The notes beneath the pieces were generated by a model. That model saw only the letters and a list, made by a program, of their open reading frames with translations, searched no databases and had not been told where the DNA came from. This document shows positions 47,569-52,666 of a stretch of DNA of 64,000 nt, in pieces. Both the position numbers and the translations under genes were made by a program. The DNA is from a bacterium (GTDB lineage Bacteria > CLD3 > SB21). The DNA lies in assembly GCA_008933615.1 (NCBI GenBank), contig WBUR01000002.1, forward strand, positions 92,372 to 156,371. Reading direction: 5' to 3'. Each line of letters opens with the position of its first letter. Position 1 is the first letter of the stretch.

Positions 47569-48231
47569 TTATTTTCCTAATTGAGCCTTTAAAGCAGCAA
47601 GATCGGCATCAACCGTCGAACTTGATTCGAGTTTCTTGAATTCATCATCAAGTGATGTGGACTGGTCAGCCAGTTCCGCATGAGCGTCAGCTTGTGACTC
47701 CACGTCCTCAATTTTCTTCTCAAATCGGTCAAAATTACCAAAGGCACCGCCACCAATACCACTCATTTGCTGGGCAATCATTTTCTTGGCCTTTGCTGCC
47801 TGATGTCGTGCAATTAGCGTATTTTGCCGAACACGCGCTTCATCAAGCTTTGCTTTCAACTGCATTAATTGAGACTTCATTTGCTCAGCTGTCTGAGTGG
47901 CTTGCTGTAGAACCGGCTCGAGCGAAGTTGCGGAATTCAGATATGTCGTTTTCTTGGCAAGCGCCTGAGACGCAAGGTCATCGCGGCCGGCATTTACTGC
48001 CTGAATGGCTTTATTTTGCCAATCCTCGGAAAGCTTTTTATTCTCATTAAACTGTTTCTCAAGGCGCTTTTGATTTGCAATAGCTGTCCCAACTGCCGTA
48101 GTTGCTTTATTGACAGCCTCTTCCATTTCAATAACCATTTGCTTAAGCATTTTTTCAGGATCTTCGGCCTTATCCAGCAAATCATTAACATTTGCCTTCA
48201 AAACATCTGTCATTCTTGCAAAAATACCCAT
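47569..48231 (-). CDS. pspA: PspA/IM30 family membrane-stress protein
   Basis: This is a 220-residue, almost entirely helical and coiled-coil protein of the PspA/Vipp1 family, which forms ESCRT-III-like assemblies on membranes and stabilises damaged bilayers. The start MGIFARMTDVLKANVNDLLD and the block DPEKMLKQMVIEMEEAV are typical. AGGAG precedes the ATG. It follows the GCS2-type ligase by 36 nt on the same strand, so it may belong to the ligase operon or use its own promoter. Confidence 0.93.
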   Translation of the reverse strand: MGIFARMTDVLKANVNDLLDKAEDPEKMLKQMVIEMEEAVNKATTAVGTAIANQKRLEKQFNENKKLSEDWQNKAIQAVNAGRDDLASQALAKKTTYLNSATSLEPVLQQATQTAEQMKSQLMQLKAKLDEARVRQNTLIARHQAAKAKKMIAQQMSGIGGGAFGNFDRFEKKIEDVESQADAHAELADQSTSLDDEFKKLESSSTVDADLAALKAQLGK

Positions 48232-48267
48232 ATTGTCTCCTTGTTGTTTAGTTTAATATATGGTTTA

Positions 48268-49392
48268 TTATGGTTTTAATGATAATCCGGTTAATGTATC
48301 GGTTAATAGGAAGTCGACAACTGCCTTTAGATCTCGTCCGCTTTCATTAAATACTTTGACCTGTCGATCGGAACTCGTGCCTTCGTCCAATATCTTGTAA
48401 ATATAATTTATTTCATTACGGCTGCCTAGTTCTTCTACTGCATCATCGACGAATTGAATCAATTCATATATTAAGTTTTTTGTGTGCACCTCTTGTCTTT
48501 TACCAAAATCGATCATTTTACCATTTATTCCATACCTGCTTGCACGCCATTTGTTCTCTGAGATAAGTTGATTTGGATAAATCCGCCATGAAATATTTCT
48601 CATATAGAGCCTATATAAAGTCAACATTAGCGCTTGAATCAGGGCGGCAATTGCGATAGTTTCATCAACTCGCGTTGGTAAATCACAAACACGAACCTCA
48701 AGAGTACCAAAATTCGGGTGGGGTCTAGCATCCCACCAAATCTTTTTGCCATTATCAATGCAATTCGTTCTCACTAATAGGTTTACATAATCCTCAAAAG
48801 TCGCCCAGGATTCAAATACAGGTGGCAGATCGGTTCGAGGAAACCGCTGAAATATTTTTGTTCGAATTGAACTCAAACCCGTGTTTCGCCCAATCCAAAA
48901 TGGCGAACTCGTCGATATGGCCAGAACATGCGGCAAAAAATAACGAATCTGGTTCAAGATCGCAATACAAGTTTCGTTATCCGGCATCCCAATATGAATA
49001 TGCAGACCAAAAATGAGGTTGGCTCTGGCGATATCTTGCATATTTTCGATAATTTCCCTGTAGCGGTCATGATCGCTAATTTCCTGGCTTTTCCAATCGC
49101 TTATAGGGTGAGTACTTGCCGCAACGATTCTCAGTCCCCTTTTCATTGCTAACTGCGCAATAGCCGTTCTGAGCTTTACTACTTCCTTTCGCGCATCCTG
49201 AATATTCCTGCAAATATTCGTTCCAACTTCAACAACCGATTGATGCATCTCCATCTTTATCTGTTCGGAAAGAAGTAATTTACCCTCTTCGAGCATTTGG
49301 CTTGTTACATGGGATCGCAATTCTCTCGTCTCAGGATCTACGATCTGAAATTCTTCTTCAATTCCAATAGTAAAAGGCACTTTTTCAGTCAT
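48268..49392 (-). CDS. GCS2-type carboxylate-amine ligase (YbdK-like)
   Basis: The 374-residue protein belongs to glutamate-cysteine ligase family 2: FTIGIEEEFQIVDP at the start, MEMHQSVVEVGT, the metal/ATP block LIFGLHIHIGMPD and ARPHPNFGTLEVRVCDLPTR. The family joins an amino group to an acidic amino acid using ATP; YbdK has weak glutamate-cysteine ligase activity. Its neighbours upstream are two ATP-grasp ligases, which suggests a common small-peptide product rather than glutathione alone. It is 131 nt after the circularly permuted ATP-grasp gene. Confidence 0.9.
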   Translation of the reverse strand: MTEKVPFTIGIEEEFQIVDPETRELRSHVTSQMLEEGKLLLSEQIKMEMHQSVVEVGTNICRNIQDARKEVVKLRTAIAQLAMKRGLRIVAASTHPISDWKSQEISDHDRYREIIENMQDIARANLIFGLHIHIGMPDNETCIAILNQIRYFLPHVLAISTSSPFWIGRNTGLSSIRTKIFQRFPRTDLPPVFESWATFEDYVNLLVRTNCIDNGKKIWWDARPHPNFGTLEVRVCDLPTRVDETIAIAALIQALMLTLYRLYMRNISWRIYPNQLISENKWRASRYGINGKMIDFGKRQEVHTKNLIYELIQFVDDAVEELGSRNEINYIYKILDEGTSSDRQVKVFNESGRDLKAVVDFLLTDTLTGLSLKP

Positions 49393-49523
49393 TAGTCTAA
49401 TATATTATTATAAACAAAGTAAACATCTTTATTAATTAGATTAGGACGAGTTATCTTATAAATAACTACTTAGTCAATTGGCGCCAAAAAACTTCCTCGA
49501 TTAGATGATCATAAGTGGCCAAT

Positions 49524-50885
49524 TTAATGAATTTCATCAAGGATAAACGTGGGTGTCGTGCCCCCACCAGCAGTCACATTAGCGAGTGATGAGGAGGACA
49601 ATCTTGTAAGAACGCCCTCTACTTTTGCGCCAAAAACATATGGATCCATATCAACGACCATGTCTACATACTTTATCTTATTATCTTCGACAATAGGAAA
49701 TGAAACTCGTGGGATTGGCACCAATTCCTGAACTACATAAAATTCACCAGACATGGCTTCTTGAATGACTCTGTTCCAATTCTCTGCGGACGTTTCTTTC
49801 CCAAGACAAACCCCCTTGCCTCCGTATTCATCATTTGGCTTTATGACAAATTCGTCCTTATTTGATGATATGTATGAAATGAGATCAATTATTGCCCCCT
49901 TGTAGACCGTTTTCTCCTCTTGTACTACACGGGTCCATGGAATGTGTTTCGAGATAACGGACAGTTCTTCACCGTTGAACATATCGTGATTTTTCTCATG
50001 CGTTAATACGGCAAAAATTGATTTCTTGTGAACCATCTTCGCTCGAAACGGATTAATCATGCAGACGTTGTGATCTCTGTATGCGTCAACCAAGGTCTGG
50101 GTTTCTTCAACGCGTTCAACACAATCATTGGTCAGGATACGTTTGTAAACAAGATCGATCTTTGTATCTTCAAACCGTAAGATATTATTTGCATACACAA
50201 GATCCCGCGGATCTGCGATTACACATTCGTAACCTTTTGACTCAAAAAATTCCTGAAAGAGCTGAAACTCAGTGTACGTCGGAACGTCTCGCCAGTCTAC
50301 AATAGCAATTACAGGCTTTTTATTTCTCTTGTTACCGGTATAGACTTGATACGTTTCTATGAGGCCGTCTAATAGTGTCTGACGTATTTGACATTTTTCA
50401 ACCGAATATTTTTTTTTAAATTCAGTGACAAACGGAAATTGATCATATACTTCAGCTGCAACATCTGAATATGCTATACCTGCCGGACACTCAGCATTCA
50501 ATTCAACAAACTTAAGGGAATCACCTTGCAAAAATGAATCCCACCGGGCCGTTATGGACAAACGATCATAACCGGGATGAATATCAACCAGTTCTTTCTC
50601 TCGCGCATTAACGCCTGCCTGAGCCATGATATGAGGATTTGAAAGAGCCGCATTCTTAAATTTAGTTATGGTATTCCGCAGAATGCCGCAAACGTATCGA
50701 ATGTATTCATATTGTTCTATGGAAATAAAATTCGGACGAACAAAATTATACATCGAACGTCCGCCAAATGTCAGTTTCTGCAATTGACATTCGCTCACGA
50801 AAACTGCAAAAATATCTGCGATCTTTGATTCGTTTTTTTCAAGAAGGTCGTTATAGTATTGGATACTCTCCGGAATACTAACCAT
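49524..50885 (-). CDS. Circularly permuted ATP-grasp ligase (type 2-like)
   Basis: The 453-residue enzyme resembles the circularly permuted ATP-grasp/glutathionylspermidine-synthase-like group. Visible are LKFVELNAECPAG (about 125-136), in which the acidic and Asn residues would bind metal, KRILTNDCV, and the glycine-rich ATP loop KPNDEYGGKGVCLG (about 347-360), followed by FYVVQELV. It would activate a carboxylate as an acyl phosphate and couple an amine. The substrate is unknown. It lies 11 nt after the second ATP-grasp gene. Confidence 0.82.
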   Translation of the reverse strand: MVSIPESIQYYNDLLEKNESKIADIFAVFVSECQLQKLTFGGRSMYNFVRPNFISIEQYEYIRYVCGILRNTITKFKNAALSNPHIMAQAGVNAREKELVDIHPGYDRLSITARWDSFLQGDSLKFVELNAECPAGIAYSDVAAEVYDQFPFVTEFKKKYSVEKCQIRQTLLDGLIETYQVYTGNKRNKKPVIAIVDWRDVPTYTEFQLFQEFFESKGYECVIADPRDLVYANNILRFEDTKIDLVYKRILTNDCVERVEETQTLVDAYRDHNVCMINPFRAKMVHKKSIFAVLTHEKNHDMFNGEELSVISKHIPWTRVVQEEKTVYKGAIIDLISYISSNKDEFVIKPNDEYGGKGVCLGKETSAENWNRVIQEAMSGEFYVVQELVPIPRVSFPIVEDNKIKYVDMVVDMDPYVFGAKVEGVLTRLSSSSLANVTAGGGTTPTFILDEIH

Positions 50886-50896
50886 CGCTTAATCTC

Positions 50897-51904
50897 TCAC
50901 TCTGTATTGGATTTGTTCTTTTTGGCAGTACGAGGCTTTGACATATCTGATTCTCTGCCGTTGAGAAACTGATTCCATCGGAATTCGCCGGCATAGGGTT
51001 GATGGTGTAAAGCGCGATCAATGGCCATTTCAGTAACCTTATCAACAACCCATTCGAAATTGGGAGGAGTCACTGAATAGTAATCGCAATCGGGTGCGGG
51101 ATTCATGTAATCAATTGCATAAGGAATACCGTCCCGTACGGCAAATTCAAGTGTGTTAAGATCATAGCCCAATGCCGTGCATATATCTACACAATATTTT
51201 TCAATTTGCTTTGCTTTTTTGTCGTCCAGTGGCGTTGGATTTTTTACGTATCTGTTGACAGGCTCTGCACCGGGATCAAATTGCATGATCCGGACATGTT
51301 TCTTGTTTATACAGTAACATCGATAATATTCTTCAAAGTTTATGTTTTCCTGCAATACCATACACAAATCACCAGTCCGATTATATTTCTCGAAAAAGTC
51401 ATCGGCAGATTCAACTTTGTATACATGCCGCCATCCTCCGCCGTCAAAAGGTTTTAAAAATGCAGGAAAACCAACGTATTCAAAAAGCTGGTCCCACGGA
51501 AGCGGAAAAGTCAAATTACGAAAAGACTCTGAGGTTGTATTTGGCGGATGCTGATGGTGCGGGAGAATCACCGTTTTAGGAACAGGTATCCCCATCTTAT
51601 CGGCAAGAGAATAATTAAAAAACTTATCATCGGCCGACCACCAAAAAGGGTTATTAATGACGTCGGTTCCGCCGAGAACCGCATTTTTCAGATATGCCCG
51701 ATAATATGCAACTTCATGTGAAATTCGGTCAATAATCACTTTGTAACCGGATGGCTCTCTCATTTTCGTGCCGCCAAGCATGATGAATTCAGCGGCAATT
51801 TTTAACTTTTTTTTCGTTGCTACTTTATTTATGTTGGCGATCAAAGCATCAGGAAAAGTTGTTTCCATTCCCCGTAAAACACCGATTCGGGCAATTTGAG
51901 ACAT
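50897..51904 (-). CDS. RimK-like ATP-grasp ligase
   Basis: The 335-residue protein has an ATP-grasp fold: an N-terminal pre-grasp domain (about 1-110), the loop FLKPFDGGGWRHVY (about 165-178), VLQENINF and the metal-binding end LEFAVRDG followed by AIDYMNPAPD (about 270-286). A basic, disordered-looking tail (KPRTAKKNKSN) ends it. The overall sequence is not close to D-Ala-D-Ala ligase or GshB as far as I recall, so the substrate is unknown. GAGGAG lies 5 nt before the ATG, and it is 15 nt after the HEPN gene. Confidence 0.8.
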   Translation of the reverse strand: MSQIARIGVLRGMETTFPDALIANINKVATKKKLKIAAEFIMLGGTKMREPSGYKVIIDRISHEVAYYRAYLKNAVLGGTDVINNPFWWSADDKFFNYSLADKMGIPVPKTVILPHHQHPPNTTSESFRNLTFPLPWDQLFEYVGFPAFLKPFDGGGWRHVYKVESADDFFEKYNRTGDLCMVLQENINFEEYYRCYCINKKHVRIMQFDPGAEPVNRYVKNPTPLDDKKAKQIEKYCVDICTALGYDLNTLEFAVRDGIPYAIDYMNPAPDCDYYSVTPPNFEWVVDKVTEMAIDRALHHQPYAGEFRWNQFLNGRESDMSKPRTAKKNKSNTE

Positions 51905-51919
51905 GGCGACTCCTCAATT

Positions 51920-52303
51920 TTAGACTAAATCTGTCAATGTGGAATAAAATCGATCTGCTTTTTCGTAGACATCACGAGCTAATGCTTCATCTGCTGCGAG
52001 CTGGTCTGATTGGTTTTCAAATCCTCCGGCTTTTACCACTGCTAACAAATCGTCATGCAACGCTGAAGAAAGCACTTTTGTGTCAATAAAGCGCGCCTTG
52101 AATACCGGTATCGAGTCAGAAGTTTTTTTTATTTCGATTTTATTTTTTTTCAAGAATGCCCGCAGCGTAAAAAAAACAGCATGATAACATCTCAATATAG
52201 ATTCTTCGTACAGCCGTTCGTCCATAAGCAATTCAGCCGCCCCGAGGCTTTCATTGGCTTTGTCAACAAGGGTTCCAATACGAAATTTCTCATCAACTAG
52301 CAT
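51920..52303 (-). CDS. HEPN-domain protein
   Basis: The 127-residue helical protein matches the HEPN pattern, with ANESLGAAELLMDERLYEESILRCYHAVFFTLRAFLK carrying the second and third helices (quoted in parts: SLGAAELLMD and YHAVFFTLRAF). The Rx4-6H ribonuclease motif of toxic HEPN proteins is missing (R is followed by H after only two residues), so RNase activity is unlikely. The ATG at 52303 is chosen because a longer frame to 52393 would run through the promoter candidate. It leads the amidoligase operon, and no nucleotidyltransferase partner is present. Confidence 0.72.
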   Translation of the reverse strand: MLVDEKFRIGTLVDKANESLGAAELLMDERLYEESILRCYHAVFFTLRAFLKKNKIEIKKTSDSIPVFKARFIDTKVLSSALHDDLLAVVKAGGFENQSDQLAADEALARDVYEKADRFYSTLTDLV

Positions 52304-52362
52304 GTGATTATTTGTTAAAACGGAAGAAAGCGAAGAAACGGTAGTGTGAGATATGAACTGAA

Positions 52363-52393
52363 AAAATATAAATAAGTAAGTACAGATTTGCAA
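52363..52393 (-). promoter_or_regulatory. Promoter candidate for HEPN-amidoligase operon
   Basis: On the minus strand TTG, 20 nt and TATATTTT form a near-consensus match, about 60 nt before the HEPN start. The tRNA-Thr promoter is divergent from it, with 58 bp between them. Confidence 0.6.
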
Positions 52394-52500: not shown

Positions 52501-52572
52501 GCCACAATAGCTCAGCGGTAGAGCAGCTGTTTCGTAAACAGCAGGTCGCAGGTTCAAATCCCGCTTGTGGCT
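52501..52572 (+). tRNA. tRNA-Thr (CGU)
   Basis: A 72-nt cloverleaf: acceptor GCCACAA with TTGTGGC, D arm GCTC/GAGC, anticodon stem GCTGT/ACAGC with loop TTCGTAA, and T loop TTCAAAT. The anticodon CGU reads ACG threonine codons. The T stem has one A-C mismatch (GCAGG/CCCGC). The 3' CCA is not encoded. Confidence 0.94.
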
Positions 52573-52666
52573 CAATCAAAAAATTTTAGGCCCATCTTTA
52601 CAATTTTATTTATTTTCACATAGCCACAACTATCATTCTTATTGTTTTGAGATCTTCTATCCTGCG

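Follow-up and report, generated by a model that had tools for sequence, protein, structure and literature searches.

What would a bacterium make with three ligases of different kinds, each from a family that joins carboxylates to amines, encoded side by side and next to PspA? The question is raised by five genes in the window, which is the whole 64,000-nucleotide stretch of contig WBUR01000002.1 analysed here. They encode a HEPN-domain protein, a RimK-like ligase, a circularly permuted ATP-grasp ligase (cpATP), a GCS2-family ligase and PspA. Our answer, to which we give a probability of roughly 0.55, is that the three ligases (the triad) form one cassette, which assembles a small peptide or pseudopeptide through a succession of ATP-dependent amide bonds, with coupling to PspA in some lineages. 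The features of the locus are as follows.

51920..52303, minus strand: HEPN-domain protein of about 127 amino acids (PF05168, E = 4e-11)
50897..51904, minus strand: RimK-like ATP-grasp ligase with a LysX/ArgX fold, 335 amino acids (weak TIGR00768/TIGR02144 matches and predicted fold)
49524..50885, minus strand: cpATP ligase with a fold like that of glutathione synthetase and GspS, 453 amino acids (PF14403, E = 1e-9)
48268..49392, minus strand: GCS2/YbdK-family carboxylate-amine ligase, 374 amino acids (PF04107, E = 1.4e-64)
47569..48231, minus strand: PspA/IM30 protein, 220 amino acids (PF04012 PspA_IM30, E = 6e-52)
52501..52573, plus strand: tRNA-Thr(CGT), divergent from the operon and not a member of it (ARAGORN)

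The five minus-strand reading frames and the gaps between them (15, 11, 131 and 36 nt) are as given in the preliminary description. Pfam profiles confirm the families it assigned to the HEPN, cpATP, GCS2 and PspA proteins; Pfam gives no match for the RimK-like protein, which was placed by its fold. The HEPN frame had been called from a TTG at 52393. In aligned relatives the homology begins at an ATG at 52303, and for this reason the true start is probably there.

The five-family order, which the preliminary description proposed to look for in other genomes, does recur. Nine genomes of the window's phylum were examined, and the order HEPN-RimK-cpATP-GCS2-PspA is complete in the window's own genome (G000) and in G001, G002 and G005, with a cpATP identity of 67% in G005. 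Two further relatives repeat it as far as their contigs reach, G003 showing the HEPN-to-GCS2 part and G006 the cpATP-to-PspA part, so that five related genomes carry the arrangement in full or up to a contig end. Genes within the operon overlap in G005 and G003. An SDR gene and the flanking synteny are also preserved in close relatives. In G004 the cpATP-GCS2-PspA part is retained and RimK and HEPN are gone from the locus. Its RimK-like gene lies elsewhere in the genome (L050:9468-10457, 53% identity) and groups with the copy of an unrelated genome (G266/L185), not with the window's family, which suggests a replacement through horizontal transfer.

Further evidence comes from distant groups. 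A scan using the cpATP alignment gave 80 loci, and profiles were then built from all of the fetched homologues. In 20 loci the genes of the three ligases all fall within about 5 kb; five of these loci belong to the window's family and 15 lie outside it. The latter are found in KSB1 (L070), Acidobacteriota (L074, L115, L132, L135, L142, L144), Sericytochromatia (L088), Tanganyikabacteria (L089) and Obscuribacterales (L120, L141, with the near relative L105, which clusters with Obscuribacterales in both trees), and in three further loci (L085, L185, L188). Writing R for the RimK-like gene, C for cpATP and G for GCS2, these 15 triads show four gene orders (R-C-G, C-G-R, G-R-C and R-G-C), so that rearrangement has not parted the genes. 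The three genes point the same way in every one of these loci but L188, in which GCS2 is convergent. In L185 (9647-10822) and L188 (7523-8764) a very divergent permuted ATP-grasp replaces the usual one and the triad is still together; this protein has no Pfam or NCBIfam match, and its ATP-grasp-like stretches were recognised by eye. L188 also holds two RimK-like copies.

Partial sets are found as well, as RimK-cpATP pairs in Polyangiaceae (L133), KSB1 (L071) and others, and as a cpATP-GCS2 pair in Chloroflexi (L139). All 36 genomes that were selected because they have a close cpATP also hold a RimK-like gene (36/36), at 44-61% identity. A second sample comprised 290 genomes chosen by their relationship to the window's genome and not by gene content; among those outside the phylum, five have a strong RimK-like match, and in three of the five (G143, G266, G272) the gene adjoins or is close to a permuted ATP-grasp. 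The five-gene arrangement exceeds chance, because relatives repeat its order and distant groups link the three ligases. The interpretation offered at the outset is borne out in part: that the three act together is strongly supported by this adjacency and co-occurrence in distant groups.

All three ligases are probably active, since their catalytic-type residues are conserved. The GCS2 protein scores 540 bits against NCBIfam PRK13515 (cut-off 371) and matches YbdK (1r8g) at E = 9e-54. Residues E12, E14, E55, H131, H133, E232 and R234 are invariant across 19 aligned sequences, keeping the E-x-E, H-x-H and E-x-R motifs. Since a sequence search of solved structures gave no useful match for either ATP-grasp protein, their structures were predicted. 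The RimK-like model (AlphaFold2, predicted local distance difference test score, pLDDT, 87) finds its best PDB folds in ArgX/LysX and D-Ala-D-Ala ligase. Its K151, N250, E253, D265 and N268 are invariant in 18 homologues, and the ATP-grasp residues are retained. TIGR00768 gives 31.4 bits, below the NCBIfam cut-off of 143.4, and TIGR02144 is also weak; the protein is called RimK-like only, because the cut-off of the RimK/LysX profiles is not reached.

For cpATP, PF14403 (CP_ATPgrasp_2) gives 38.2 bits, above the cut-off of 32, and the AlphaFold2 model (pLDDT 94) matches the folds of human and yeast glutathione synthetase, 3n6x, Cp1B, YgiC, YjfC and GspS. Residues R114, D116, E128, N130 and K349 are invariant across aligned homologues. 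The R114-x-D116 and E128-x-N130 pairs equal in spacing R139/D141/E163/N165 of Cp1B, the comparison being one of spacing and not of structural alignment; substitution of these Cp1B residues impairs that enzyme (PMC12568646). The cpATP proteins of G005 (L023:9368-10864) and G004 (L024:9485-11017) carry a lysine-rich C-terminal tail of about 50-60 amino acids, and the window's copy is without it.

The linkage across distant groups, the conserved catalytic-type residues and the folds are the observed basis for a pathway, of which we infer the step order, the substrates, the co-transcription and the membrane role. Peptide ligases that are linked commonly work one after another (PMC4431377). Here the first product would be a dipeptide of the gamma-glutamyl or another carboxylate-amine type, made by GCS2; the RimK-like enzyme would then add an amino acid, and the permuted enzyme, which resembles glutathione synthetase and GspS, would add, or cap the product with, an amino acid or amine. 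The preliminary description supposed the product to be a small peptide or a membrane-linked conjugate; candidates are a tripeptide of amino acids, a thiol like glutathione, or a product with a diamine cap. In the window's lineage the cassette and PspA probably share a transcript, in which case the product would probably be made or used in membrane stress or membrane maintenance. Metallopeptidases are encoded beside the cassette or close to it in several lineages (M42 in L184, M28 in L133, M29 in L088, DUF885 in L132), and an esterase is upstream of RimK in L105, L120 and L133. Such neighbours, in few loci, are as expected for a peptide metabolite. A pathway like that of N-acetylglutaminylglutamine amide was considered and rejected: the annotated neighbours include the one M42 peptidase of L184 but neither a class-II amidotransferase nor a GNAT.

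Several observations weigh against a single PspA-coupled cassette. Two of the five outside genomes of the second sample (G104, G231) have a RimK-like gene and no close permuted ATP-grasp, and for that reason the ligases may also work separately. Members of the GCS2 family vary in substrate, and most of the loci come from draft metagenome-assembled genomes. Most triad loci are without PspA, and the Acidobacteriota PspA link described below is confined to one clade. The preliminary description had held that scattering of the genes in related genomes would refute its reading. Such scattering is seen in part: in the sister family (G007, G008) RimK, cpATP, GCS2 and PspA lie on separate stretches, and in most Pyrinomonadaceae the genes are dispersed. 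They are, however, still retained there.

Is the place of PspA in the operon meaningful? The association is found once more, independently placed, in Acidobacteriota. There, in a separate RimK clade, PspA is followed by a conserved protein of about 284 amino acids and then by a RimK-like gene in an operon-like arrangement (L193, L194, L196, L207-L210, L213). The intervening protein (L193:8383-9237; L196:5673-6557; L207:5654-6505) has no Pfam match and is predicted from hydropathy to have two transmembrane segments in the two copies tested; L184 also has a homologue, about 5 kb upstream of its RimK-cpATP pair. Four of these Acidobacteriota PspA-RimK loci carry, in divergent orientation to PspA, another cpATP paralogue that is distinct from the first. 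The two PspA linkages fall in separate RimK clades and could reflect either two events or one old arrangement. One PspA homologue was found in the window's genome, and chance placement twice beside a single-copy PspA gene is unlikely. A bolder proposal is that the small peptide or pseudopeptide of this multi-phylum cassette supports membrane maintenance of the PspA/ESCRT-III type, PspA working with a dedicated metabolite or itself being modified by the ligases; this we regard as unlikely.

The alternative that deserves most attention at this point is that the triad is real and HEPN and PspA are mere chance neighbours in the window's family, which is possible, though we rather doubt it. The likewise preserved SDR gene and flanking synteny would fit such an account, as would the 131-nt gap between cpATP and GCS2, which could hold another promoter: a promoter-consensus match of 10/12 sits within it. 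The single promoter earlier assigned to all five genes found no support, a consensus scan giving 16 sites as against 15.0 +/- 3.7 in shuffles, and the promoter and terminator scan of the locus was uninformative. The HEPN gene, again in keeping with this account, is absent from every triad locus outside the window's family, and the R-X4-6-H catalytic motif has no match in the window's protein, so that its supposed role as a functional leader is unsupported beyond that family. It is a lineage-specific and probably non-nuclease accessory; a HEPN RNase toxin was rejected, the motif being missing and no partner found. The persistence of order and short gaps at 67% identity, with the overlapping genes of G005 and G003, the retention of PspA in G004 after RimK and HEPN were lost, and the position of PspA beside a RimK-like gene in a second phylum all argue against chance. 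A direct role of PspA or HEPN as a substrate, with the RimK-like enzyme adding residues to a protein C terminus as in LysW or RpsF, is quite improbable. The top RimK-like folds are those of ArgX with its carrier protein LysW, and the four window-family PspA sequences that were aligned all share the C-terminus LAALKAQLGK; however, the triad loci have neither a carrier protein nor a conserved acceptor in common, the PspA proteins of Acidobacteriota have different C-termini, and most triads have no PspA to modify.

Two further alternatives concern the product. A glutathione-like thiol (gamma-Glu-Cys-X) that substitutes for glutathione, with PspA as a stress-linked neighbour, is suggested by the membership of GCS2 in the glutamate-cysteine ligase family and by the likeness of the cpATP fold to eukaryotic glutathione synthetase. 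We consider it distinctly unlikely: the profile that fits GCS2 best is that of a generic carboxylate-amine ligase and not of a cysteine-specific one, a third enzyme would be unexplained where glutathione needs two, and no thiol-using partner genes were seen. A peptidyl-polyamine conjugate resembling glutathionylspermidine would draw on the fold that cpATP shares with GspS, YgiC and YjfC, of which the last two are cited as peptide-spermidine ligases (PMC12568646), and on known operons in which PspA is accompanied by polyamine genes and a GspS-related ATP-grasp (PMC11237479); the coupling to PspA would be as in these operons. This too is improbable. No polyamine gene lies near the operon, GSP_synth (PF03738) is absent from the window's genome, and carboxynorspermidine decarboxylase (nspC) reaches the cut-off in none of the window-family genomes searched. 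AdoMet decarboxylase was found in none of the seven family genomes searched (0/7), and a spermidine conjugate is therefore unlikely; agmatine, putrescine or imported amines are possible substrates.

The successive-ligase cassette has partial counterparts among known systems. The closest that involves PspA is the PspA operon with a GspS-related ligase (E. coli YjfC-type; PMC11237479), in which PspA is likewise near an ATP-grasp of the glutathionylspermidine-synthetase fold. However, the permuted ligase here belongs to the PF14403 family and has about 12% identity to YjfC, a likeness at the level of fold only; GCS2 and RimK-like ligases are added, and there are no CesT/Tir, DUF350 or polyamine genes. 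The operon thus lacks the features that define the third group of that paper (GspS-related ligase, DUF350, CesT/Tir and polyamine genes with PspA), in whose text a search for words finds no GCS2, amidoligase or HEPN. Synthesis of glutathione, homoglutathione or trypanothione similarly uses a GCS-family enzyme, then a ligase of the glutathione-synthetase fold and a further ligase, but the sequence families are different and the RimK-like enzyme here is extra. Cp1B of the E-64 pathway (PMC12568646) has the same fold as cpATP and the same R-x-D / E-x-N arrangement in its active site, at about 15% identity; it is fungal, and its partner ligase is an ANL-type amide synthetase.

Amidoligase networks, with clusters of several peptide ligases of different folds and often peptidases, are said to have been surveyed by Iyer et al. 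in 2009 (Mol Biosyst; cited in PMC4431377), reportedly including a tagging system in which a permuted GS-like ligase is joined by an alpha-E domain and an NTN peptidase. In the loci here no alpha-E or NTN domain was identified among the annotated neighbours, of which selected ones were scanned. The parts and the theme (amidoligase networks, pairing of PspA with a GspS-like ligase) are already known. No description of the three-ligase cassette or of its PspA link was found in the literature covered, which did not include the 2009 survey, and that survey may list the triad.

If the triad makes one molecule, it would be an uncharacterised metabolite common to Acidobacteriota, KSB1, non-photosynthetic cyanobacterial relatives and the window's phylum. 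The repeated position next to PspA, if meaningful, would be a second example, of different chemistry, for research on membrane stress in which a peptide-ligase pathway accompanies PspA. The enzymes of the cassette are compact and directly testable.

It is worth adding that L219 (5080-10589) encodes a GCS2 protein, an MFS transporter, a 245-amino-acid protein, a distant RimK-like ligase (31%) and an esterase, and is possibly another amidoligase pathway. The 245-amino-acid protein resembles, by its size alone, the metallophosphoesterase that adjoins RimK in L220. Lastly, the block upstream of the tRNA-Thr(CGT) gene, which faces the HEPN gene, is strongly conserved and is probably the tRNA promoter.

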